64,000 bases of DNA, taken from Thuidium tamariscinum. Lineage: Eukaryota > Streptophyta > Bryopsida > Hypnales > Thuidiaceae. The stretch lies in contig OX344758.2 of assembly GCA_947034885.2 (NCBI GenBank), positions 22,967,067 through 23,031,066 on the forward strand, in the 5' to 3' direction. The notes beneath the pieces are model-generated. The model had not been told where the DNA came from and searched no databases. It saw only the letters and a program-made list of their open reading frames with translations. How positions within the stretch are numbered: position 1 is the stretch's first letter; each line of letters starts with the position of its first letter. Below are positions 2,978 to 64,000 of the stretch, piece after piece. Both the position numbers and the translations under genes were made by a program.

Positions 2978-3720
2978 AGGGTGATTGCAAGAAACACTTG
3001 TACTATTTGTTGTGTTTTAAAGAACATTCATGATTTTTTTCTAGAATACTTTAAAATTAGAAAACTAATTTTTTTAAAATTTTTAAAATTTGATTAATGT
3101 ATTTACTTCTAAGACAAAGTTTTTCATCAAAGGAAATGGATAGAAAAATTTTCTATGTAGGAGAATTTGAAAAGTGTCAAATCTCAAGAAAATAGGTACT
3201 TTGATTCAAAAATTAGTTAAAAATAGTATAAATAAGTAAATAAGAAAATAAAAATTTTCCATTTGTAATAACTTTATGGAGATGGTCAATGACAAAAAAC
3301 CCATGAAATAATATTTTATATGTTTCAAAATGCAAGTAGATAGAAGCTCACTTTTTAGGCTTCCACCTTACATATAATTAATTATTTTTAAATTCCTTTA
3401 GTGGAAAGTTTTATTTCTATAGTACAAAACACTCCACAAAATTTCACAATGTAACTTTTCAAAAAAAGGTACTCGATAGTACTAAAAATTCCAAATTGGC
3501 AAGTGTGACATGCATTTTGGGCCTATTTTTGGATAGTAAATTATTTTTGAAAATTACCGAAAAGTTAAGGAAGTTGTATGATAGTCATAAATACCTTGCC
3601 TATAAATCTTAAATCATTTGGAGTTAAAACACAAAAGTTATGGCCAATAAACAAATCAGCACACCTTGTAGTACACATGGTGTGACAAAAAATAGGACAC
3701 GTTTTTCTTACAATTGCCCT
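2978..3720 (+). mobile_element. AGGGTGATTGC MITE-like element, copy 1
   Basis: About 743 bp with ends AGGGTGATTGCAAGAAACAC and an inverted partner ending TTACAATTGCCCT. It shares with copy 2 long internal blocks, such as the TAGGAGAA.TTGAAAAGT region, GTTTCAA followed by TGCAAG, and the TAGTACTAAAAA region. No coding capacity. Confidence 0.8.
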
Positions 3721-4498: not shown

Positions 4499-5221
4499 AG
4501 GGTGATTGCAAGAAACACCTGCCGATTTTGTTGCGTTTGGCTGATTTTTTCGGGAGTACTTTAAAATTAGAAAATTAATTTGAAAAAAATTTGAAAAATA
4601 TGAATAGTGTATATACCTCTAAGATGAAGGTTTTCACCAAAGGAAATGGATAGAAAATTTCTCTAAGTAGGAGAACTTGAAAAGTACCAAACCTCTAGAA
4701 AATACATATCTTTATGTTTTAATTAGGGAAAATAGTGAAAATAGATATTTTCAAAAAATAAAAACTGGAAATTTTCAACAACTTTATAGAGATGGTCATT
4801 CACAAAAAAACCCACCAAAATAATATTTTATATGTTTCAAGATACAAGCAAAAGGGAGCTCACTTTGTAGACCTCCACACCACATAAAATTAACTATTTT
4901 TAAAAATCCTTCCTTGGAGAGCTAGAAGTCTATTAGAAGACCATTTCATCCAAATTTCATCTTAAAATCATTAAAAGTAGGTACTCCATAGTACTAAAAA
5001 CCCTTAAACTGCCAAGTGTGACATCCAATTGGGGTCTATTTTTGGATAGTAAACTATTTTTGAAAATTAGGAAAAAATTAGGAAAGACTTATGATAGTTA
5101 TGAGTACCTTCCCTACAAATCTTGAGTCAATAGGAGCCAAAACACAAAAGTTATGGCCAAAAAACAAATCAGCACACGTAGTGTGACACAAAATAGGACA
5201 AGTGTATCTTGCAATCACCCT
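4499..5221 (+). mobile_element. AGGGTGATTGC MITE-like element, copy 2
   Basis: About 723 bp, same orientation and colinear with copy 1. Ends AGGGTGATTGCAAGAAACAC and CTTGCAATCACCCT. TAAA directly precedes GGG at the left end and follows CCC at the right end, a possible 4 bp target duplication. Confidence 0.8.
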
Positions 5222-12900: not shown

Positions 12901-15084
12901 AAAGGCAATCTGATTTCACTATTTAGGTAACCCACTCGCCACCTCACTCGCCTCACAGTCTGTATCAATGTGCTGCACGTGCACCTCACCGTATTATTTT
13001 TGTATGCAAATTTCAAACTACGTGCTGGCATGCAACTCTCTGTCGGTGCATGCATGAGGAGCGGCTAAATGTCACCGATGTCATGAACTTTGGAACCGTC
13101 GGTAGCGGCGACGTCCGGAAAATTGGACAGGGATAAGGGCTTTCAAGCGAAACCAGGCTCGTACATTCTTGTACGTCGGTGTTCGTTTAATTGGTCGAAG
13201 CCTCGAATGAGGAAAGGAGTTGAAGGGAGCAACTTAGTTACCAGTCGATTCCTGTTGGGAATAATCGCTCTAACAAGGATACCCGGATCCAATTAATGTC
13301 AGCACGTGCTAGCTAGCTACATGCTTAAGAAGATTGTGTTGCACAGTAGGGTCCCAGGCAACAATGTAAGTTCGGTTGCGGACATTTTCTAGTGCAGCCT
13401 TTTGATTGGACACTGTTGTTTGGTCAACTTCATGTGAACACATCATGACCTATTCGTATAGCTTATAAAAGTTCTCGAGCGGTCGCATAGGTAATTCATA
13501 ATTAAAAATATGAGTTGTGGTCAATCTTAAGTGGCAACTATTGCATTGAATCGCTGTATCAAAGATTTATTAGCCACCAAACTCCCTAGATTCAAATTCC
13601 ATGATAGAGAATCTAAGTATGCAAGTTGTGAAAGACCATGTTCAAAGCTAGCAACATGGGTTTCGAAAAATCTCACAATATGGATGCTTGGGTTGTTGCA
13701 AATTTGCACTTCAATGTTTTAAGAAAGAGCCTCTAAAGACATCCTTGTGATGTCGGAGGTGGTCGTACTGCATCCAGTTGAAAAAAGTCAAAAGGTTCCA
13801 AATTTTAAATACTTTTCAGTGTGCCCGTCTCACACAACTTGAAAATAGACTATTGAATTTCGCATTTCCCTTTGTGGTTCTCGATTGCATTAAAATTTTG
13901 AGCTTTCGAGATCAATTTCAGTTTGTACTCTTTACATTGTTGAATCTTTGAAACATGCGCGTCTGCAATAACATTGTTGCCTGGCACTTTACATGAACCG
14001 TGTGACTCTTTACTTTAGACTTTTGAAGCGCTGTATCCTGTGAAACTCTGACCACCTACTATAACGGCGGCAGTCAGAATTGTTTACTTAATTGTATACA
14101 TATTAATTATTCCGTGGCTGTTTCGTGTCAGTTGCATGCGAACCTGCACTGGACAGGACAGGAAGCGATATATATCGATGGAGTGCAGCACAAGGAAAGG
14201 CAAGGAACATTCGTGCTCAGGTCGGGGAAACGTCCGAGATCGATCAAAGCTATCCAGGTCGATCTTGTATAAATATAGAATGACTACTGCAAATCCTTCT
14301 GCGAAATTCTCGAGCTTCAACTCGCTTCAACAGGCATGCACGGAGAGTTTCTATCCATGTGCGTCGAAAATCCTCCTCAACAACCCTCTCACCTAACTCT
14401 CTTGCTGAGGCATCTCTTTCCAGGTGTTACGCTGCTAAATTAGCTAGTTGATTGATCGAATTAGTATTCCTTCCTGCAGTAATTATTCTCCTTATTTATG
14501 GAAAAGCTTGGTGTCCATCGATATTAGTCGTAAGGGCTCATATGCATTCCGCTGGACATCCAAGTTTCTCCTGCGTGAGGGACAGACCTGTGAATTTCCG
14601 CGCGAGTCCCTTGTGCATGCATGCATGCATTGCCTTGACCTTCGACACCCCTTTGATCGCTTCTTCGAACTTCTAGTTTAATTTGGTGATCCACGTGTGT
14701 GCAGTCAAGTGACGTACTATTTCGACCAGAAATCACAGAGTAATTTTCGAAGCTTCCGAAAGATTAATTTGACTGGAGAAGTTACTGTTGTTCCGCTTTC
14801 CCGGAGTACGTGAGGTTTCAAATTGCAAGGTGCATTCTAGTATTGTCAAGTTTCGCAATTTTAGCCTGTGATGGGCCTGTGATTCTATGGTTTGTTTTCA
14901 AATCCATGCGCGTGTGATTCGGAGCCCCAGAATCTCATTTTAAACAGCTCCAACCTCCAAATTATAGAGATTTCACATGATTGCATATCCTACATTTAAC
15001 TTCATTCTCTGAGCACAAGCCTTAGTTGCCATATATGATAATAATTTATACTAATGTTGTGTCATTGCATTCGTCAACTTAGAA
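9924..15084. other. Non-coding, partly GC-richer, minisatellite
   Basis: 10.7-14.7 kb is less AT-rich than its surroundings and may be old genic DNA, but no family is recognisable. Frames of 60-95 codons overlap on both strands without splice-consistent continuation. A (GCAT)n run is at 14616-14631. Confidence 0.45.
12558..12700. repeat. Minisatellite, ~41 bp period, 3-4 units
   Basis: CATCCACGAGCAGG begins at 12558, 12599 and, slightly changed, 12640. A degenerate fourth start (CATCCTCAAAG) is at 12683. Each unit ends in a GATATC-like string. The open frame across it is a repeat by-product. Confidence 0.8.
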
Positions 15085-15797
15085 GGGTGATTGCATGAAA
15101 CACGTATCAGTTTTGTTGCGTTTTTACAATATTCAAGCCTTTTTTTTCTAGGAATATTTTTAAATTAAAAAAAAAAATTTAAAATTAGAAAAAAAAATAT
15201 GGCCAATGTATACACCTATAAGATGAAGGTAACCACTAAAGGAAAATCATAGAAAATTTCTTTGAGTAGGAGAACGAGAAAAGTGCCAAATCTCAAGAAT
15301 ATAAATATTGTAATGTTTTAATTTAATTAATAAAAAATAGGAAAATAATGAAAATAAAATAAATCCATATGCAAGAACTTTATTGATATGGTCATACACC
15401 AAAAAACCCACAAAAGTTATTTAATACATGTTTTAAAATACAAATAGAAAGAGGTTCACTTTGTGAACTTCTACAAGACTTATAATTATTTATTTCTAAG
15501 AATCCTTTGTAATATATCTATAAGTCTATTAGAAGACCATCTTGTCTAAATTTTAGCTTTAAATTCATTAATTTGGATACTCAATAGTACTAAACCCTTC
15601 AAAATTAGCAAATGTGACATATAATCGGGGGCTATTTTTAGATAGCAATTTTTTATATCACAAAAAATTAGGTAGAGTACATATTAGTCACAAGTATATT
15701 GTCTACAAATTTCAAGTCATTTGGAGACAAAACACAAAAGTTATGGCCAAAAAACTAATCAATTAGAAATGTGTGATAGATTGTTTTATGCAATGAC
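15085..15797 (+). mobile_element. AGGGTGATTGC MITE-like element, copy 4
   Basis: Starts GGGTGATTGCATGAAACACG and follows the interior of copies 1 and 2 (AAGATGAAGGT, TAGGAGAACGAGAAAAGTG, AAACACAAAAGTTATGGCC). The right end is degenerate (TTTATGCAATGACT). An older copy. Confidence 0.7.
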
Positions 15798-16112: not shown

Positions 16113-16682
16113 CATTAGAGAAATTTTGAACTCTCTAAAGGGCCTCTAGAATGGCCTCAATTGGGGTCCTCAATTGGATTTAAATGCGTACTTGTCAAAT
16201 AAAGGACAACTTTTTTCCCCTATTTCCACCCATTTTGACATCATGATGTTTATAAGGGTACATGTTTTTTTATTGGATAATGGGACATTAGGTACTTCTT
16301 GTCATTCAAATTTTAAGTACATTGAGGGATTATTTTATTTGGAGAAGGACAAATTTGGTGCAATTAAGTACTAATGGCTCATGTGTTTTTAGTACAATGA
16401 GTGAGACTTTTTTTTTAATAAGATCATTGGTACTTCATGCTCATGATGTTTGCACCATGAAATACCTCTTATTGGACAATGGAACAATAGGTACTTTTTG
16501 TCATTCAAGTCCTTGGTACAATAAGTGAATTCTTTATTTAACAAATTCATAAGTACTTGATGAATATTCACACAAGGTAGCGACACATATTGTGTACTAA
16601 GGCTATCATCTTTAGCCTTCAATAAATAGCTTTGCATGTCAATTCCTAACGGCCCTCTAGAGAGCTCAAAATTTCTCTAATG
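16113..16682 (+). mobile_element. CATTAGAG element (570 bp), second near-identical copy
   Basis: Starts CATTAGAGAAATTTTGAACT and ends in the inverted sequence CTCTAATG. Read in reverse complement it matches 53284-53854 almost base for base. A shared 77-codon stretch (16404-16637, minus) is identical in translation. The flanks (GAG left, GCT right) show no target duplication. Confidence 0.85.
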
Positions 16683-35793: not shown

Positions 35794-36365
35794 CTAAGCT
35801 TGTTCAATAATCCTACCATGTAATTGTAATATGCGCTCCGGTTTGATGCTATCATTCATTTCAAAAGCAATTCTTAATCCTTCCCTTCTAGCTCCATCAA
35901 GGATTGGACCAATCTTCATGAATTTGTGTTGCAAGTAACTTAAAGGCCTAAAACAATTGTCATCGACTGCAGCCATTTGATCTGTATATATCAAATGCAT
36001 CTTTGTAATGGATTCTACATAGTCTGTTCCCTTCCTAACTAGTACTTTGCGCCGCCTCCTGTGGCCATTTGTTTTTTTTGTTCGATAAAGGTAGTAATAA
36101 GTCATTCCAAAGAACACGTGCATTTCGCTTTTATACCATATATAGATGAATTGAGATACTTGAGCTTTCATAGGTACATACTCTAAGTCATCCACCTTGA
36201 CAATGACATCATCTCCAACCTCATATAGCACTCCCCGTAGCATGCACTTTTGAATGTGTGTGTACACATATGTTCCCCAATCCTGTACTTGAAAATGAAG
36301 TTGTAAGAAGTTAGCTAACCTGGCATCGGCAGCTTTAGGGCGCGCTCTCCTACCCTTCTTTGTTC
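35794..36365 (-). pseudogene. C-terminal part of the Tnp2-like transposase, in a shifted frame
   Basis: The frame is open from about 36365 (GTKKGRRARPKAADARLANF, reading minus) down to the stop at 35794, so it overlaps the end of the main transposase frame by a few codons and needs no start of its own. It contains LRGVLYEVGDDVIVKVDD, QFIYIWYKSEMHVFFGMTYYY and a basic KKTNGHRRRRK stretch. A G-x-x-Y-x-V-G-D-x-V segment followed by an aromatic-rich strand resembles BAH-like domains, which I recall at the C-terminus of some Tnp2-type transposases. The simplest reading is a one-base indel near 36350-36370 in a ~1,130-residue protein. A very short intron is less likely because no good donor/acceptor pair is visible. 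Confidence 0.6.
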
Positions 36366-39193
36366 CAATTTAAATCCCTTTGGAAATGGCTATAGACAAA
36401 CACATTGTCTCCGGTGCAATTTTTAACAATTTTGTCAATGTTTTGGGCAGCATCAATGGTAGTGCAAAAAAGAAAGTGTTTCTTGTGCCAATCCGGACAA
36501 CGAGAAGTGTCATAGTTGTTTTCTTCATTTTGATAATGAGGCAAATGCAAATACTCATGAAGTTGAATAAGTGCTCTTCCAGACATACCAATCACATCGC
36601 TCTCTGCACATACACTTTTTTCTACACTTTGAAATTGTTTTCGACTGTAGAATTTGATGAATGTTTGTTCCACTTGTTTGTCGTTGGAGTGTATATTTTG
36701 GTATTTTTGAACCTCTCTTTCATAAGGAAAACACCAATATACATCTGAGTGTCCAAATCTAAAGATATCCTCCAAAATGTGTCCTGCACCTGCAACGTGC
36801 TCTAAAGGTCTTCCATTTGGTCCATAAGTATCTTCAGAAAGAATGTGCCACGTTTGAAGCAATAGTCTTACATTTTGGAGGTCTGCTCTTGTCCATCCTT
36901 TACTGCAAGTCTCATTGAAAATGTAATGTGAAATATCAATAAGACACAATCCCATGTTCAGGAGTTTGTAATCCATAGGTTCATCCTTGTTCAATGCATA
37001 TAATACACTTGGTAGCACCCACTGAATAAATTTCTGATTTTCTTCTGCCATGAAAGAATTCCTATACTCAAATGGATCATTAGGCCACCGTCCCCCTCTT
37101 AACTCACGAGGGCGTGACTCTTCCACTGCTATACACATTTTTGATACTATTGTTTGTTTGTCTATATCTTCACCAATCCATGTGAACAAGTTCTTGATGT
37201 ATGTCTTGAAAATGTTCAAGCCCATGATGTGCATTACATCAAACACAAGGTCAAGGGAAAGGTCAAACCCATATAGATGATATAGTATCCATAGAGGGGA
37301 CTCTCCACAAACACCAGTTCTTTGTCCGTGACTAGTGAACGCACTTTTCGGATAAGGAGGCAACCGGTTCCAACTACGCACATCTTGCCATAGCTCTGCA
37401 ATGTTACGTCTTTCAGGAGGATGGTGAATTTGCTCACGATTATGGCCGTATACATAATGACCATCTTGTACCTTTGAATGCATTTTGCACCTTCTACACG
37501 CCGACTTTCCAGATTGTTTCAACTTCCCCATTTTGCATTGAGCCGGATGGTCCCCTGTCACAAGCATCAACATTGCCCTTATCTTTGAGTCTCCCGGTAT
37601 ATTTGGGAAGTGTTCACTCATAAGAGACCGCGGGTAATTTACGTTGAAACCATCGCAATACAAATCTTGCAACTCTTTAATGAATGGTTCTAGTAACTTC
37701 ACCATGGATTCTTTGATTTTTCTATCTAACATTGAGTTTGCACCACTTGTTTTGGGGATGAATGATGTTGGAATGAAAAGCACAGGAATGAGTTCAATTG
37801 GATTTGTTTTTCCTGCATTTAATATGGCAACTTCTAAAACCCAACTGCTTCGATTGTGGCGCTTTGAAATAGTGAATCCATCCCAATGAGCAGCCAATGC
37901 TACATTCCATGGATCACCTTGTATCATCTTTTTCATAGATGATATTTTTTCTAAACAATTCCAACAATCAAAATTGTATTCTTTTGTTTCTTCATTCCAA
38001 GCAGAATTCAAATAATTACGTTTATATGGAAATGTAGAATGCCCCATCCTGCATTTCTTACACATTACTGGCAATTCCCACTCTTGTTCAGGGTTCCACC
38101 AATCTTGGTAAATTCGGAACTTCTCCCCATCCCAAAAGTCTTCTATATGTTCAGGAGCATCGTTTGTAGACTTCCCAATCCAACGGTCCTTGTTTTTCCA
38201 CAAGCTTAACATTCTTTCGGAATATGATTTAGAACGCATAAGATTTTGCAATTGACTTCCTATAGGCAAGTAATCAATTGGAATCATGTTTTTTCTTGGC
38301 ACATTGCACATTGTGCAAGTTTCAGCATGAATATGACAATCTCGTTTGATTTTTGGTGGACTGCATGTGCAATGAACAACATTGTCTCCTTCATATACAT
38401 CTTCAACACTGGGTTCAAGGATGATGGCATCATGCATATTCGCTTCAGTAGAACCAATACACATTCGATACCTTTTGGGGTTTACCATTCCTCTACTTCT
38501 GTACATTTTCATCAATTTCTTCCACGAATTGATAACTTGCCCTTCATCTAGTTCTCCTTTCCATTGCCTGGGCATTCCTCTTAAAATGGCACCGAATTTT
38601 GGGTCTTTGTCATGAATATCTAGAGGTTGCAATCCATCAAATAAATGGCGCATGATGGAATCTTGGCACGAGATTGGACAATTAAAAGAATCCCAATTAC
38701 TTTGCATTTTAATGAATGCATATCTCAAAGCATCCAAAGAATGTTCACCTTCTTCTTCATTTGGAATATCATGTAGTGGATCACCACCTACAATACCCAC
38801 ATTGTTTGACATATCATGAGGTGCGTCACCTTGTTCGTCCTCTATGTCATTTGCAATGTCATTTTGAATGTCATCTATAATGTCATTTGCCAAACGAGCT
38901 ACATTATCTTCCAAAACATCATTGTTTTCATTGTACTCATTCATTTCATCCTCTGGTCTAGTTTCTTCACTACTTTCATGAGAAGTAGTCATTCTTTCAG
39001 GCTTCGATACATCATCAGGAGGTGGTGCATCAAGTCTTTGTCTATCATTGAGTATATTTTCATTAATACGCGCACGTCTTTCAGCTTCAACTTTGTGCCT
39101 ATCATATGTTGTTCTCCAAACACGCCTCCCTCCAAGACAATGGAACCAACAAGTGCATAATACTTTTCTGGGCCTTCGTGGAGGTCGTGCCAT
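36350..39193 (-). CDS. Tnp2-like transposase, N-terminal and catalytic part (947 aa)
   Basis: Transposase of a cut-and-paste DNA element. Seen: ATG at 39191-39193; basic, Cys-containing N-terminus (RPPRRPRKVLCTCWFHC); acidic low-complexity stretch ~60-150 rich in N, D, E and I; Cys/His clusters CTC...CHIHAETCTMC (~275-296) and CKKC...CWNC (~378-413); then WDGFTISKR (D438), GDHPAQCKMGKLK (D548), CRRC (~565) and LDLVFDVMHIMGLN (~645-660). Known: GDHPAQ/DFPA followed by a CxxC and a DxMH helix is the core pattern of Tnp2-family transposases. The frame ends in TAG at 36350-36352, just after FQRDLNWN. The protein-like sequence continues in the neighbouring frame (next entry), which implies a frameshift. 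No other internal stops, so the copy is fairly young. Alternative: a related superfamily such as KDZ; the GDHPAQ core makes Tnp2 more likely. Confidence 0.8.
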   Translation of the reverse strand: MARPPRRPRKVLCTCWFHCLGGRRVWRTTYDRHKVEAERRARINENILNDRQRLDAPPPDDVSKPERMTTSHESSEETRPEDEMNEYNENNDVLEDNVARLANDIIDDIQNDIANDIEDEQGDAPHDMSNNVGIVGGDPLHDIPNEEEGEHSLDALRYAFIKMQSNWDSFNCPISCQDSIMRHLFDGLQPLDIHDKDPKFGAILRGMPRQWKGELDEGQVINSWKKLMKMYRSRGMVNPKRYRMCIGSTEANMHDAIILEPSVEDVYEGDNVVHCTCSPPKIKRDCHIHAETCTMCNVPRKNMIPIDYLPIGSQLQNLMRSKSYSERMLSLWKNKDRWIGKSTNDAPEHIEDFWDGEKFRIYQDWWNPEQEWELPVMCKKCRMGHSTFPYKRNYLNSAWNEETKEYNFDCWNCLEKISSMKKMIQGDPWNVALAAHWDGFTISKRHNRSSWVLEVAILNAGKTNPIELIPVLFIPTSFIPKTSGANSMLDRKIKESMVKLLEPFIKELQDLYCDGFNVNYPRSLMSEHFPNIPGDSKIRAMLMLVTGDHPAQCKMGKLKQSGKSACRRCKMHSKVQDGHYVYGHNREQIHHPPERRNIAELWQDVRSWNRLPPYPKSAFTSHGQRTGVCGESPLWILYHLYGFDLSLDLVFDVMHIMGLNIFKTYIKNLFTWIGEDIDKQTIVSKMCIAVEESRPRELRGGRWPNDPFEYRNSFMAEENQKFIQWVLPSVLYALNKDEPMDYKLLNMGLCLIDISHYIFNETCSKGWTRADLQNVRLLLQTWHILSEDTYGPNGRPLEHVAGAGHILEDIFRFGHSDVYWCFPYEREVQKYQNIHSNDKQVEQTFIKFYSRKQFQSVEKSVCAESDVIGMSGRALIQLHEYLHLPHYQNEENNYDTSRCPDWHKKHFLFCTTIDAAQNIDKIVKNCTGDNVFVYSHFQRDLNWNKEG

Positions 39194-39614
39194 TGCAACA
39201 ATGTTGACTTCTAGAAATGAATGTTTTCCTATCTTCGAAAATGAATAATAAATATATTTCTTTTCAGATCATATTTATATATTTGGAAGTTGTAAACAAA
39301 TGTTGGTTGGTATTACTTTTATATTTTTTCAATCATAATTTTTTTACTTTTTGTATGTGCATTTTTAAAACAAAAAGTAAATGTATTAGTCCTTTTACTT
39401 TAAACACATATTAAATGTAAAAGTAGGTTAATCACATAAAAAATAAAAGTAAAAGCTTTTGTAAAGTTTATTATATAAACCTTTCACATAATTCAAGTAC
39501 ACAATTGATTTATATATACTATTGATAATTATATGTTAAATAGTTGAAGCATCTTATATTGTTTAGAAGTAGCCATAGTCATTTTAGATTGTCTGTTTGT
39601 CCTCTATTCTCACC
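39194..39614. promoter_or_regulatory. Putative divergent promoter region of the transposon
   Basis: AT-rich 420 bp gap between the two oppositely oriented start codons. It must hold both promoters if these genes are expressed. Several TATATA-like strings occur (around 39280 and 39510), but none can be singled out. Confidence 0.4.
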
Positions 39615-42100: not shown

Positions 42101-42175
42101 GACCTTATACCTTATGTTTCCCACTTTTGTAGTCTATAGTGTAAGTGATAACTATGGTTTGAAGTGATGAAGCTA

Positions 42176-42446
42176 AGGTGGGTACACCTAAAAGCACCAC
42201 TTTTTGGTACTGCGCCTAGTAACTATTATTGGTCTAATCAAATTTTCATTTAGTCTTTTTGGCAAGTGAAAGCACGTCCCAATGCACCAAAAAACATAGC
42301 ATTTGGATATGGTATACAAAAGTTATTAAGGTTCAAAGTCTATTTCTAAAAGCACTCCAGCCAAATAGTTACATAATCGAATTCAAAATGTACTGCAACT
42401 ATAGATGGCACTTTTAGATGAAGTGCAATTTTAGGTGTATTCACAT
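42176..42446 (-). mobile_element. TA-flanked MITE (AGGTGGGTACACC family), copy B
   Basis: Starts AGGTGGGTACACCTAAAAGC after TA. It shares with copy A, in opposite orientation, the blocks AGTCTTTTTGGCAAGTGAAAG, the GTATACAAAAGTTATTAA region and TAGATGGCACTTTTAG. The right end is degenerate (GGTGTATTCAC). Older than copy A. Confidence 0.65.
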
Positions 42447-53283: not shown

Positions 53284-53854
53284 CATTAGAGAAATTTTGA
53301 GCTCTCTAGAGGGCCGTTAGGAATTGACATGCAAAGCTATTTATTGAAGGCTAAAGATGATAGCCTTAGTACACAATATGTGTCGCTACCTTGTGTGAAT
53401 ATTCATCAAGTACTTATGAATTTGTTAAATAAAGAATTCACTTATTGTACCAAGGACTTGAATGACAAAAAGTACCTATTGTTCCATTGTCCAATAAGAG
53501 GTATTTCATGGTGCAAACATCATGAGCATGAAGTACCAATGATCTTATTAAAAAAAAAAGTTTCACTCATTGTACTAAAAACACATGAGCCATTAGTACT
53601 TAATTGCACCAAATTTGTCCCTCTCCAAATAAAATAATCCCTCAATGTACTTAAAATTTGAATGACAAGAAGTACCTAATGTCCCATTATCCAATAAAAA
53701 AACATGTACCTTTATAAACATCATGATGTCAAAATGGGTGGAAATAGGGAAAAAAAGTTGTCCTTTATTTGACAAGTACGCATTTAAATCCAATTGAGGA
53801 CCCCAATTGAGGCCATTCTAGAGGCCCTTTGGAGAGTTCAAAATTTCTCTAATG
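53284..53854 (-). mobile_element. CATTAGAG element (571 bp), inserted in the LINE
   Basis: Terminal inverted repeats of about 30 bp (CATTAGAGAAATTTTGAGCT at one end, its imperfect complement ending CTCTAATG at the other). It interrupts LINE ORF2, so it is younger than the LINE. Nearly identical in reverse orientation to the copy at 16113-16682. A 102-codon open frame runs through it on the plus strand, but it is part of the repeat and resembles no known protein. No convincing target-site duplication: flanks are ACT and TAG. Confidence 0.85.
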
Positions 53855-57180: not shown

Positions 57181-57688
57181 CAAGAGAATGGGGTCTTTTA
57201 AGTAGTGTCCATTACAAGAAAAACGAGCCTTCAAAAAGGCCGTCATTTTGGTTTTTTCTCAGAGCGGATCTTTTATTCTAGTCAGTCTAATATGGTGTAT
57301 CCACCCACATTGTCAATCGGTCAGACAAAAAAGGGCAGTTCACGAACGGTGGAGATGATATCGCCCATCCCTGCCGTCATGCATAGTAATTGCATCCCGC
57401 CAAGCGCCTGCTGATGAGGATTTCCATCGAAAAGTTAATCATCCACGCAGAACTTGCGCCTAAATTATCTACTGCTTGGCTTCCTTTGATTTGTACGTGA
57501 TCTACCTTCTTCCACCTCGAACACATATCGTTGTGGACTGTGGTAGCAACACTCATCGATTGTAGACTGTTAACTAATCTTTGTTGTATATTTGAGTAGT
57601 TTTGTACAATGAGTTGATCTTTTTTTTGTTAGTAGTCCGTAAACTTTGTGAATGAGTCTTTCCTGTACTCACAAGTATTGTGTAAGGA
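57181..57688 (+). promoter_or_regulatory. Upstream region of the 986-aa gene
   Basis: About 500 bp between the LINE 5' end and the ATG at 57689. Holds a TATATTTGAG string near 57586 and a T-rich tract near 57622. It must contain the promoter and 5' leader unless these lie beyond the LINE. Confidence 0.35.
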
Positions 57689-60600
57689 ATGGCGACTAAT
57701 CTTTTGCCGTACAAAGTTCAAGTAGCTATCGATGGAAAATATCGCCTGCTCATTCTCCGAGGTCGACCGCTTCATGAGCAGACACCTCGATCGACTTTCC
57801 TTGAGAAACGGAAAGCTGGTGAAACCAATCTAGACTTGTGGCTCGATGGTTCACTTTATCCTGCAGATTCATTGAGTAAACACCCGAAGTTTAGTGACTT
57901 GAGGACCTTTCTAGAATTTGTAGGAGAGGGAGAAAATGGACTCCTTGGTTATACAACCAGTTTAGCCAATTCTGTGCCACTTGCGGCCATTGCTCAAGCA
58001 ACAACCGACCATAGAAATTCTGAATTCCATGACCTCCGAGAGTGTGTAGATAAGTTGACTTCACACTTAGAGCAACAAGAAGTTGAACTAGACAGCCTAC
58101 GGGAGCAAGAACGTAAAAACAAACATGACTTCATAGTGACTTCGAGAGAAGCAGATTCACTTCGTGCTCAGAATTCTCAGTTCCGAAGCAGAATCACAAA
58201 CTTGCGAGTAGATTATGAAGCACAGATTCTAGATCTAAAGAAGGATCTTGATGAAAGCATTCGATCAGAAGTTGCTCTTGAATCTGACATTGACTTAATG
58301 ATTAATGAGAACGTTGACAAGTTAATCGCTATACAACAAAGTCATGAGGCTGAAATCCACAAACTCAAGCTAGAGCATCGTCAGACAGTACTTCGTTTAT
58401 CACGTTTGACAAGAAAATGGAAGCAGTTGCGTTCCACCGCCTATGGATACCGTAGTCAGGTTCGGAGAAAAAGAGATATCTCGATGCTTTCTCAGACAAG
58501 CGGACAAGCAAAGGCTTTACGTAGACTTGCTCGCTCAGTCATTGCCCCTAGTACTGTCCAAGCAATTCATGATAGCAATGTCACTAACAGGAAAAAACAA
58601 CGTCTACGTGGTTGTCAGAAACAACAAATTGAATCTGGCAAGATTCTCGCAAGTATCTTCTCAAAGACAGAAGTGAAAACTATGTTGAATTCGCCTAATT
58701 TACAATCTGTTGGTATTGACGTAGCTAATGAATTTCTTGACAAAATTGGAGCCGGGATGGGAGCTCATGAAGTACTGGCAACGTGTGATAGGAGTGGGAT
58801 CACTCAAGAAGGCTATTCCTTAGTTTACAAACAATTCAAAGGAAGTGCAGAGGCTGCAGGAAAAGGCCTTCGAGTTAGCTGTCTTCCTAAACCCTATCAT
58901 GTATCTCTCTTACGGAAGCAAATGAATTCTAAGTTAACCAACTTTGTTGGAGAGTATTATCACATCAACAACTCATTTGAGATTCCACCACATCCAAAGT
59001 CCAAGAAAAAAGAAGCAATACATGTGAAATTGACGGAGAACAATTCCTTGTTTGTCGACATTGAGCAGGTGCAAAGGACCATGATACAACTTTATCGTAT
59101 AACACCAACAGGTATGCCAAATCAAAACTCTATTGCAGTAAACCCTCCTTCTATTTCTTAGAATGTCTATCATGTACACATTTTTTTTTGGGTTGTCTTC
59201 TTTATTTTCCTCACTACCATGTACTCAAAACTCCTACACTTCGAATATAATGTCTAAAATTTACGAATTCACATATTATTGGATTTGTAGCTTCAGTTCC
59301 CAAGACTGCGCCTCTATTGATACTTAAACTCTCTGACTGTATCTCTCCTGCACACTTCAAAACGTACACCAAATTATTCTTGCATTCATTTGCTGAAATT
59401 ATCATTAATTTTTTAAACTAAAAATTGGTAGCATTTAAAATGCAACATAATAGCTTTAAAAATAATAGGACACATTTAATCATGCAAACATTACTTCCAT
59501 ACATAGCTTTTGCCATGTTTCTCTGTAGCTCCTCTCCATATCAGTAGATATCTGCACATCATATAGATAAATGCTATGTGTCCTTATCATCAATTTGACA
59601 TACCTCAGGATTGGCTTTGTTGCAGAACTGGATGGCAAACCTCTCATCTTTGTCCTCAAGTTAGACGAAGCTGAGATCGTCCACTCGCAGAAGTTGGAAC
59701 GCTTGAGTATAACTTTAATGAATAGAGCACTGAATCCAGACATTACCATCGGAAGTGAAGATTACTTCGCTGTCCAGTCTGAGAGGGAAATTTGGCCTAT
59801 AGGATGTTTCCAGATACCTAAAGAATCCCATGAAATACTATCATGGGTATTTCATCAAACACGTATTCCTACTCTTATAGAAGCCCAGGAAGCTGGTCAA
59901 AAACTCCACGTACTTGAAGTGGGCGAATTTGTTGTACAATGGCATCTCTCTGCAGACATGAAAAGCATTAAATGCATGTATGGACTAAGCCATGGAGCTT
60001 GTGCCAAGCAAAGTTGCATCTACTGCCTTCAAGAACGAGTAAAGCCAACAATTGCAACTATGGAACAAGCAACTACAGTGTTTTCTAAACGACCTACAAC
60101 ACTAGATGGAGGTTTGTTCAGTTCACGCCATGCAGCAAAACCAATCACTGGAGTGGCAGGGAAGGGAGGATGGAAGCCCATTGTCCCTATACCAATGGAT
60201 AGGGTGCACATGTGCACTCTACATGCTTTTAACAGGATTGTTGAAAAGCTTATTCACCTGCATTTCCAATTCATATGGATCCTTCGTGACAAGAACATAC
60301 AAAAAATTGCAATTGAAGATATGCAGTGTGCTATTTCATCAACAGGAGCTCACGGAGGAAACGCCATCATTTTTAAGGATGACCAACTCTCTGGTAAGCA
60401 GAACAGCATCCCGTCAAAACCATCACTGAATGGATCTCATGTAGCTAAATTATTTGAACCTTCTACACTTCCTACTGGTGCAAGCAAGTTGTACATAGAT
60501 GTGGTCACAGCAGAGAGGAACTTCATGAGCTCAGGTGACTCTAAAAGGGCAAAACTAGATGTTTGGATTGGATTGGAGAAGCTCAAACCTTATTTCGAGG

Positions 60601-62325
60601 GGTTGACTCTCTCTAACGATCAGAAGTCCGAATTCAAGGGCTTGGCGGAGGCATGGGGCCAGCAATTCATCAAGGCATTCGGGGAACAACATGTTACTCA
60701 TTATATTGTAAGATTCTTCAAAAACCTGCACATGCAATTCACATAAGTAAATCAATTGAATTGTATATTATATGAAATAATACCATTTACCACAAGAAAA
60801 GTATAATGCGTCTAATTACTCTTAATGTCCCTGATAGTTAGTACAATCACTCTCGATAATATATTATTAGTTAATTTGGTTATCCTACCAAGTTCACAAA
60901 ACTGAAATTGAGACTATGCCCTAATTCCACCATCCCTATGTATGACTATCTTTTCAATGCTATACCTAGTAGAAGTCAGGTGGAAACTAAAATCAATGAA
61001 CTACTACTAAGGTGGGTACACCCAAAAGCGCCCTGTTCCTAAAAGCGCCATCTACAGTGCACATACATTTCCAAAATCAGTCATGTTCACAGACTGTAGA
61101 TGGCACTTTCAGAAACAGACTTTGACTGTTAATAACTTTTGCATACACTATCCAAATCCTACGTTCTTTAGTGCGTTGGAACATGCTTTCACTTGCCAAC
61201 AAGACTACATAAAAATTTGAACTAATTAATAGCAGGAACTAGGCTCAGTATGAATAAGTGGCACTTTTGGGTGTACCTACCTTATATTGTTTTTATGGTT
61301 TGGAATACTTACGATATAAAATAATTGTCCAAATTCACTAGGTCAGTTCAACATTATTCCCACATGAGCTTCATGACCAAAAAGTTTGTTAAAAGAGAAC
61401 TTGTCAACAGAAAGCCACATAAGCAGTGCTAAACACACACTGCACTAGAACCTCATCAACAAAACTGAAAATACTAAAATGATTTGTAAAGAAGCAATGA
61501 TACCTTATCCCTTTCTTGTCAACAACTTGAAGGGAGGCAGTCAAACAAAGTTATTTACATTGCTTTCTATGATCCTTTCATTGGATACTATCCTAATCCA
61601 TTACATTCACTTGCTCAATCCATATAGAAATTAACCATCATAGTATGTTTGAACAAGTATTAATGTTTACGAAATTGACAAATTCTCTAACTGAGATTTA
61701 ATAGTGCCTTCACTAACTTATAGAAATAATGGCGTATACCTTGCCTTCGTAGAGCCGGTTCAATCTAAGTTTATGTTACATCTTACAAGCAAAAAGTACG
61801 GAGCAATCTTCATAATTTATATTGAAGTAACCATGATTTTAATTATGACATGTTGGTTTATGATTACAGCATGCTTTCATCAAACACGCACCTTGGTTTG
61901 TATCAGAGTATGGTAGTCTTTCCATTTGGTCTTGCCAAGGGATGGAATTCTCCCACTATGCAGCAAAATCTGCTTATCAACGTCACACTCAGCATGGAGG
62001 CGGAAAAAACAAAAGAAGTCCACTAATACAGACTTATCAGCATTGGTACCGCATCATACAACATCGTTTCCATGAACAAACAATCCAAAACACTAGAGAT
62101 ACTATTGAGGAAGAAGAAGAGCAACTTACAATGGAGGCCAATATCCGAAAAAGAAGGGAAGCATATGCAGCCTCTTCGGCAAATGCACACATGACTTTGT
62201 GGCGTCAGAAATGTCGTAGAGTTGGTTCAAAATGGGTGCCTGTTGTTGCTTCTACAGATCCAATAGGAGAAGAGCCTATGTCAACTTCCAATAGTAACTC
62301 GGACAGTACCAGACTACTTCAATAG
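57689..62325 (+). CDS. Intact 3-exon gene, 986-aa coiled-coil plus putative RNase H/DDE-like protein
   Basis: Seen: exons 57689-59111, 59626-60707 and 61870-62325 join through GT-AG introns (514 and 1162 nt) into 987 codons with no internal stop. Junction 1 is phase 1 (ACAG|GTATGC to TTGCAG|AACTGG) and junction 2 phase 0 (TATATT|GTAAGA to TTACAG|CATGCT). ATG context is GGAATGGCG. Residues ~110-250 are charged and heptad-like (coiled coil). From ~365 there is a globular region with ITQEGYSLVYKQF and FVDIEQVQRTM, then KLDEAEIVHSQ (~486), WHLSADMKSIKCMYGL (D585), CIYC (C605, C608), MDRVHMCTLHAF (D666) and, across junction 2, HVTHYI|HAFIKH followed by CQGMEFSHYAAK (E861). Known, from memory: uncharacterised invertebrate and algal proteins show the same order (WHLxADxK, CxxC, a D..HxF helix, TxYxH, QGxE). 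Inference: transposase-derived nuclease fold with D488 or D477, D585 and E861 as a possible triad. No terminal repeats seen, so host gene or domesticated copy. Exon structure is firm; function is not known. Confidence 0.85.
60708..61869 (+). other. Intron 2 of the 986-aa gene, carrying a MITE
   Basis: GTAAGA donor and TTACAG acceptor. Splicing joins TATATT to CATGCT and restores the Y-x-H pattern expected inside one helix. Unspliced reading would stop at 60744-60746, after FKNLHMQFT. The intron contains the 273 bp TA-flanked element at 61010-61282. Confidence 0.8.
61010..61282 (+). mobile_element. TA-flanked MITE (AGGTGGGTACACC family), copy A
   Basis: The ends are inverted repeats starting AGGTGGGTACACCCAAAAG, and TA dinucleotides flank both sides (61008-61009 and 61283-61284). 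A second subterminal pair repeats the motif TAGATGGCACTTT. A TA target and short TIRs fit a Tc1/mariner-type non-autonomous element. A diverged second copy lies at 42176-42446 in the opposite internal orientation. Confidence 0.75.
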
Positions 62326-64000
62326 ACTATACACAGTGAAGGAAAGATGATTAATTCCTTCTAGATGCAAAAGTTCAAACTAGCCATTCATGTGAAGATT
62401 CATGCTCATGTTGTGTGATCTGTGAAGTTGAATCCCCCTCTTCATTTGTGGGAAGGACATTGCTCTTTCTTAGAGTAATTCTCAAAGCTTATTACACGCT
62501 TACCAAGTTTAAAGTGTTCAAAACAGGTGTTCCTATAACCAATCGTACATTGTCATCAATAGGAGAATTTCACTCTATGTGTAATCTACACTTTCTCTAG
62601 GTCTAGAAGTTCAACAACTGTCCTTATTTTGAGGTTTAGGAGAAATTCCTTTTCTGAGAGCCAAGATATATGGTGAAGGTTCTACAATTTGATGTTCAAT
62701 TTCTTCTTTAAAGAAATACATGACTTAAACTTCATTTTCTTCTAATTATGTTCACATGCTTCTTCACTACTTTAGAGACAATTCCAATGCCAACAGAGAG
62801 AACCTACCTCATCAAGAAGCCAATGATGCCCTCTTCAACATTGGCCTCCAAACATACTGCCAATTGCTGCAATTTGTTTTCTTAATTCACAAAATCATAA
62901 TATATGTATGCTGACTAATGACTCGCAGTAATCACTAGTAAACTAACTATGGAAAGGAAGATTAGCATGAAACAACAATAATACATTAAAAAATTAATAA
63001 TAAAATGATTGTAAACAATAGTCAAAGAGGGGATTTGGAATCGAATTTGGTAGGCGAATTGAGGATCTTTATTGCAGCAATGGTGCTCAATGGGCCTTCT
63101 TTTGTGCTACTATTCACGTTGGTGACGCTAGGCTGATTTTGTATTATGAATCTCCTTCATCTGCTATTGACATCATTATTTCAGGTCACAATGAAGGAAT
63201 ACACATAAAACACTCACAATACACATTACGATAATAAGTGACCAAATTCAAAGCCACTATAACTTACATCAGCAACCATTCCTTGAGAATGATCTGTTTC
63301 AAAGCTTGACTAGAACTCAGGGTTGTTTCCCTATCCTTGTCGAACTACTTAGCAAAAGTATTAAGGGTGAGCCTTGAGGGATTGCAGAAGCTCATGAGTA
63401 AACATCGAGAAATGCATGTCATTTTGTAAAGGGAATTCATCACCCTGGCCCATAGAAAAGAATTGAGGAAGACATCCATGCATAGAAATGTGTGCAAAAT
63501 ATCTACAAACATAAACTAGAACATAAGATAACTCTTACAAGACAAATATGAAGGACTAATAATATGTAGAAGGTTTTCCATTGCTCTATGGTAATGAGAA
63601 ATTCGATACTAACCGTGTTGGGGGTTTGGAGCTATTGCAGATCTTGCTTTAGGCCTTGATCAGTGTCTCACTAGTGACCTCACCTATGGTTTTGGTGCAG
63701 ACTTCATTTTCGGTGTAGCTGTTTGTTTTACCATTGTCTTGGTAGATCCGGTTGTCACATCAAAGTTCAAATGATGTCACCAAATGTTTAGACCCATCTT
63801 GAAACTTAGGCAATTCCAGTATTGCCGACACAGTGGGAGTGTCAAAATGCAACCGCTAGATGTTCATCATCACATAGCATACCTGTATGACTAAGTAAGC
63901 ACGAAGAGTTAGCATTTACAGTCATTGATACAATGAGACTATATTCAAAAAAAAGAACTACCTAGAAGTAGCTATTCTAACACTATGAATCAAGAAATAG
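62326..64000. other. 3' flank of the 986-aa gene, nothing recognised
   Basis: No supported coding region. If the gene were part of a transposon, its right end should lie here; no inverted partner of the 57.2-57.7 kb sequence is visible. Confidence 0.5.

Follow-up and report, generated by a model that had tools for sequence, protein, structure and literature searches.

The 64,000-nucleotide stretch of Thuidium tamariscinum DNA analyzed here (the window, on contig OX344758.2) contains an intact gene for a 986-residue protein, and the question raised by this locus is what kind of gene it is. A reading made from the letters alone (the sequence-only reading) had taken it for a preserved gene of an undescribed family standing alone among dead elements. 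Its description of an intact, three-exon gene with a coiled coil and no known family held up in our analysis. Its picture of a lone gene did not, because the gene itself belongs to a transposon, and the feature that it had ended at position 62325 is part of an element that extends from 57210 to beyond the window. We conclude, with considerable confidence, that a two-gene terminal inverted repeat (TIR) DNA transposon encodes the protein as its DDE transposase, and that the catalytic core of this enzyme is of the RAG1/Transib/CACTA (CMCT) type.

Genomic copies, element ends and gene structure

The 363-Mb genome to which the window belongs (G000; the window lies on contig C10) was searched with exon 2 of the gene, and at least 115 matches at E up to 0.001 were obtained, the focal copy included and some being pieces of one copy; the count is a lower bound because 113 of 160 candidates were scored. 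The matches were present on all 11 large contigs. Following the self match, their identities were 89%, 82%, 68%, and 68%, with 45-62% for long matches and 32-76% for fragments, and by hand count 26 of the 115 (again with the focal one) spanned at least 358 of 360 residues without a stop. Twenty related loci were read at 10 kb; the number of independent events is less than 20, because L014 does not differ from L017 anywhere in the 10 kb and L025 is almost the same as L028 from position 714 onward. The L014/L017 pair lies 53 kb apart on contig C6, and its flanks are identical too, as in a recent segmental duplication carrying a copy of the element.

For recent copy pairs, similarity was lost within ∼10 bases of a left CATTA... 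and at a right ...TAATG, and these breaks identify the copies as mobile elements. At nine loci both boundaries could be placed, giving complete elements of 5.5-7.0 kb with 14-18 of the first 20 bases matching between their inverted ends; at the remaining eleven, at least one end did not turn up in the sequence that was read or, for L017, the locus repeated another. The focal element is 13,513 bp long (G000:C10:23024276-23037788), and it exceeds its relatives in length because several kilobases of extra sequence lie near its right end. It begins with CATTACAAGAAAAACGAGCCTTCAAAAAGGCC at 57210 and ends with CCTAATG at extended position 70722, 6,722 bp beyond the window, where the end was located by means of family-like subterminal sequence. 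These two ends are imperfect repeats, agreeing at 11 of their first 20 bases. A 444-bp short copy in L009 belongs to a family of at least 40 matches (203 candidates), all 90-94% identical apart from the query, and the 20 of these 40 that were read were all full-length. The CATTA...TAATG termini were found on the focal element, the nine other long elements, the L009 short copy, and every one of the 20 short copies that were read. The sequence-only reading had held that many decayed copies with terminal repeats across the genome would speak against it, and the 115 or more matches, with CATTA...TAATG on the delimited copies, are of that kind.

The three exons join in frame to give 2,961 bases, encoding 986 residues and a stop, with GT-AG at both introns; the exons and the length are as the sequence-only reading had given them. 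Its claim that both junctions keep frame was likewise borne out. Copy L015, which lacks the first intron, crosses junction 1 as GITPAEVEGDPLIF within a 745-codon frame, and junction 1 is thereby confirmed. Junction 2 is supported by conserved flanks and splice signals; none of the copies is intron-less there, and L024 and L039 have a short in-frame intron at this position. All three exons were matched in the same order in 20 of the 20 loci (exon 1 of L023 in part), which together with the intron-less copy makes the gene model more than a chance assembly. An unrelated insert in intron 2, resembling a miniature inverted-repeat transposable element (MITE), has arms of TAAGGTGGGTACACCCAAAAGCGCC, a second imperfect hairpin inside, and a related copy at 42174-42352.

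The intact focal frame could also belong to the host, as a gene that was domesticated or came in laterally and is kept by selection, as the sequence-only reading had it. Ratios of nonsynonymous to synonymous substitution rates (dN/dS) were calculated by the Nei-Gojobori method with stops skipped and are given for the 11 of 153 exon-2 pairs with dS < 1.2. Those for the focal copy agree with constraint: against L009 they are 0.18 (exon 2) and 0.30 (exon 1), and against L010 they are 0.08 and 0.18, respectively. The same constraint was seen for the other diverged pairs (0.07-0.13), however, so that the six diverged exon-2 pairs together gave 0.07-0.18, whereas four recent pairs (dS < 0.1) gave 0.36-0.63; a fifth recent pair, L025/L028, had a dS of 0 and no ratio. 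Neither group has the value near 1 that had been named as an argument against selection. The pattern looks like that of a transposon, in which the enzyme is constrained while spreading and resting copies decay. The focal copy, moreover, still has its two termini, its second gene is intact, and its relatives are spread over all 11 large contigs. Given the element ends on the focal copy, the host-gene explanation is largely refuted, and we consider it very improbable.

Catalytic core, predicted fold and insertion sites

Among 36 copies, the two catalytic aspartates were each conserved in 36, the paired cysteines in 35, the paired histidines in 33, and the glutamate in 34, with L032, whose exon 3 is incomplete in the fetched range, scored as a miss. 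The protein thus has the CMCT arrangement, in which C(2)C and H(3-4)H lie between the second D and the E of the DDE triad, and 20 residues separate both D585 from C605 and H841 from E861. The element also has the 5'-CA..TG-3' termini found in most CMCT cases.

The fold was predicted for a relative of the protein with low confidence (predicted local distance difference test score, pLDDT, 55). In comparisons made with this model, RAG1 and Transib were found at Foldseek ranks one to five and in VIA rows one to 29, and no CACTA or hAT structure was among the 50 VIA matches listed. A RAG1-type, RNase H-like fold with a helical insert could be recognized in the same low-confidence model. The alignment behind the fold (A6) comprised 20 rows, the exon-3-only rows having been cut from 12 to 4 and the exon-2 rows of L032, L035, L036, L040, and L044 left out; in alignments A1 (33 rows), A2, and A4 the ends of exon-2 rows were misplaced, and pieces with stops were excluded from A1-A7. 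On the basis of this model, the enzyme is most likely related in fold to RAG1, which cuts antibody genes.

Sequence searches identified no known family in Pfam or the PDB, in agreement with the description of the family as undescribed. No Pfam family scored above its cut-off for the joined protein; weak coiled-coil matches at residues 102-275 were the only ones, and they are the Pfam support for the N-terminal coiled coil, on which we agree with the sequence-only reading. The names attached to weak matches (CCDC39, CALCOCO1, THOC7, and CmlS_C) were all below cut-off and were dismissed as coiled-coil noise. The PDB gave no match by phmmer and six chance matches by profile search (best E 0.28), PHROGs gave none (lowest E 0.078), and there was no match in IMG/VR, GTDB genomes, phages, or plasmids, which hold viral and prokaryotic DNA, so that absence there says little.

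Three empty sites were available for comparison with filled ones, and each revealed a target-site duplication (TSD) of 0 bp. The focal element is inserted in one arm of a palindrome whose other arm is still uninterrupted. The flanks align with this intact arm over the joint AGTAGTGTC|CTAGACATC with 113 of 115 columns identical and no duplicated base; the two differing columns are a single-base gap ∼35 bp left of the joint and a mismatch ∼67 bp to its right. The end points of the focal element are supported by the intact arm that spans the joint. The host palindrome, near-perfect and built of TCTTTTAAGTA units, runs from G000:C10 23037789 onward, and the last part of the left flank, just before 57210, also belongs to it. 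The full element in L016 sits in a CACTAGTAGAA-type repeat, and its alignment with the intact repeat of L011 crosses the joint and spans 225 bp, ungapped, at 88% identity; L011 9453-9677 and the L016 flanks are copies of a palindromic repeat with CACTAGTAGAA ends, one of which served as the element's target. The third case is the 444-bp copy in L009, missing from the window copy, where zero bases overlap at the empty site; the list of empty-site insertions that yielded it was restricted to insertions with CATTA-like ends.

Flanks were compared for 31 insertions, namely 20 short copies and 11 others (the focal element, nine further long ones, and the L009 short copy). In all 31, matches of length 2 occurred in 3, of length 3 in 1, and of length 4 or more in 0. 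For the short copies, the numbers at lengths 1, 2, and 3 were 10, 2, and 1 of 20, with 5.7, 1.7, and 0.3, respectively, expected from shuffled pairs, and 0 of 20 at length 4 or more; for the 11 others, they were 5, 1, 0, and 0. The element copies therefore appear to insert without the usual small target duplication. Weighing against this is the mild excess at length 1 (10 versus 5.7), which allows a 1-bp duplication in some copies, and the flank bases also agree in 5 of the 11 other insertions, for which no expectation was computed. A genuine 1-bp duplication, in contrast, would show in nearly all copies. The focal copy has a C on both sides and both Cs are kept in the empty site, and at the other two empty-site insertions the bases differ between the two sides. 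We regard an enzyme that makes a 1-bp duplication as improbable. Read by eye, the two flank bases of the 444-bp copies (L046-L065) agree in 10 of 20 cases, and of the 10 pairs that differ 7 are complementary, which may hint at a symmetrical target preference.

In the mechanism that we propose, the protein would bind the CATTA...TAATG ends, excise the element, and join its ends to directly opposed target phosphates with a stagger of 0 bp. The zinc motif would keep the insert domain next to the RNase H-like core, and the 444-bp non-autonomous copies would be mobilized in trans.

The second gene and other features of the window

A convergent gene on the opposite strand, downstream of the gene for the 986-residue protein (gene A), encodes 397 residues in three exons and is intact in the focal copy. 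This gene B was matched in 19 of the 20 10-kb loci, in part in L009, L026, and L027 and with L021 as the exception, and Pfam gave no family for it at E values of up to 10. A recurrent gene without a known family might itself be the true transposase, with the 986-residue protein as an accessory. The DDE and zinc residues and the predicted RAG1/Transib-like fold sit in gene A, however, and although the gene B model (pLDDT 43) is too poor to read and so cannot exclude gene B by fold, we think such a division of roles highly unlikely. The coordinates of the element are collected in Table 1.

Table 1. Positions of the transposon and its parts, in window numbering (extended, numbering continued past the window)
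Feature	Position	Strand	Remarks
TIR DNA transposon, left part	57210..64000	+	continues beyond window to G000:C10:23037788
Left terminal inverted repeat region	57210..57249	+	CATTA..., imperfect
Probable transposase, exon 1	57689..59111	+	N-terminal region and coiled coil
Intron 1	59112..59625	+	GT-AG, 514 bp, phase 1; missing in copy L015
Probable transposase, exon 2	59626..60707	+	putative catalytic core D488, D585, C605/C608 (C(2)C)
Intron 2	60708..61869	+	GT-AG, 1162 bp, phase 0
MITE-like insert, unrelated, in intron 2	61008..61284	.	277 bp, 25-bp arms
Probable transposase, exon 3	61870..62325	+	H836/H841 (H(4)H) and E861
Gene B, exons	extended 65846-65537, 65425-64626, 64505-64422	-	all beyond window; last position from length

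Elsewhere in the window, an open 972-codon frame at 36353-39268 (minus strand) resembles CACTA Tnp2 (PF02992, 24.7 bits, cut-off 28.6) and is followed by a 191-codon frame at 35794-36369 (minus strand), so the statement that every other long coding region is broken was too strong. Inverted 571-bp copies at 16113-16682 and 53284-53854 are 98.9% identical, each with its own inverted ends of ∼32 bp; they are MITE-like and very recent. A direct repeat of ∼0.65 kb occurs in three diverged copies (2978-3658, 4542-5190, and 15084-15761) with 71-78% identity.

Relation to named lineages

RAG1 and Transib, with amphioxus ProtoRAG (BbRAGL), were the best matches of the predicted fold and share the order D, D, C(2)C, H(4)H, E with our protein. 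The D-to-C and H-to-E spacings are 20 and 20 residues here and 19 and 20 in mouse RAG1, in which the glutamate is E962. The element differs from RAG1/Transib in the lack of any sequence match, in its additional gene B and long N-terminal coiled coil, and in a TSD of 0 bp at the three empty sites, with no 5-bp match in the flanks of 31 insertions, where theirs is 5 bp. No RAG2-like gene turned up in the Pfam scans, none of which was aimed at RAG2. A two-gene layout is known in CACTA elements too. EnSpm/CACTA elements (Tnp2, PF02992) differ from ours in their CACTA rather than CATTA ends and 3-bp TSD. PF02992 (Transposase_21) matched neither the joined protein (E up to 1) nor any of five proteins taken from exons or copies (E up to 10), and hhalign found no match between the focal family and the Tnp2-like frame of the window; at least 150 loci of this genome (627 candidates) match PF02992. 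The CMCT clade consists of CACTA, Mirage, Chapaev, Transib/RAG1, Plavaka, ESTA, and Lanisha, and Kojima 2025 (PMC12730594) gives CA...TG termini for it in most cases, a feature that our element has in common with RAG1/Transib. EnSpm/CACTA combines CA..TG ends with the C(2)C/H(4)H/DDE motif set, as does our element. TSDs of 2-5 bp are reported by Kojima 2025 for CMCT lineages and are not stated as a definition; our empty sites had 0 bp, and flank matches were rare in the 31 insertions.

Outside this clade, Spy of the PHIS group likewise inserts without a TSD and targets AAATTT, according to PMC4482050. Spy has an IS5-type transposase, in contrast, no PHIS family was matched here in Pfam, and an AAA|TTT insertion site was found by eye in the flanks of 0 of the 31 insertions. 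The 7-8-bp TSD of KDZ elements (Zisupton, Kyakuja, and Dileera) was also seen in 0 of 31.

The element may already have a name, as a member of Lanisha (Maumus, McDaniel and Carey, Repbase Reports 2020), a prospect that we rate as not far short of even. Kojima 2025 assigns Lanisha to the CMCT clade and ascribes the same motifs to it, yet gives 2-5-bp TSDs for CMCT lineages as opposed to the 0 bp found here. Neither the sequence nor the TSD of Lanisha was found in the literature searched, where Kojima alone named it. We therefore describe the element as a CMCT-type transposon with an unusual zero-base insertion, filed under no named lineage. The authors of Lanisha are known for moss genomics (Ceratodon), Lanisha itself is probably from moss, and the genome studied here, with its 363 Mb and 11 large contigs, resembles a moss in size and chromosome number. 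More tentatively, the element could represent a separate superfamily in the RAG1/Transib/CACTA clade that has lost the target stagger and has an obligate second gene of an unseen family in a plant-type genome.

DDE transposases bear a mechanical signature in their target stagger. If our interpretation is true, a 0-bp relative would indicate that members of the CMCT clade can lose the geometry of target joining, as Spy shows for PHIS, and many natural copies are offered for the study of zero-stagger joining. Should the element prove to be Lanisha, the value of these results would lie in what they show of its gene structure, in the evidence on its fold, and in the TSD of zero. The finding would add a RAG1-like fold to a plant-type genome, together with a second gene that has no Pfam family.
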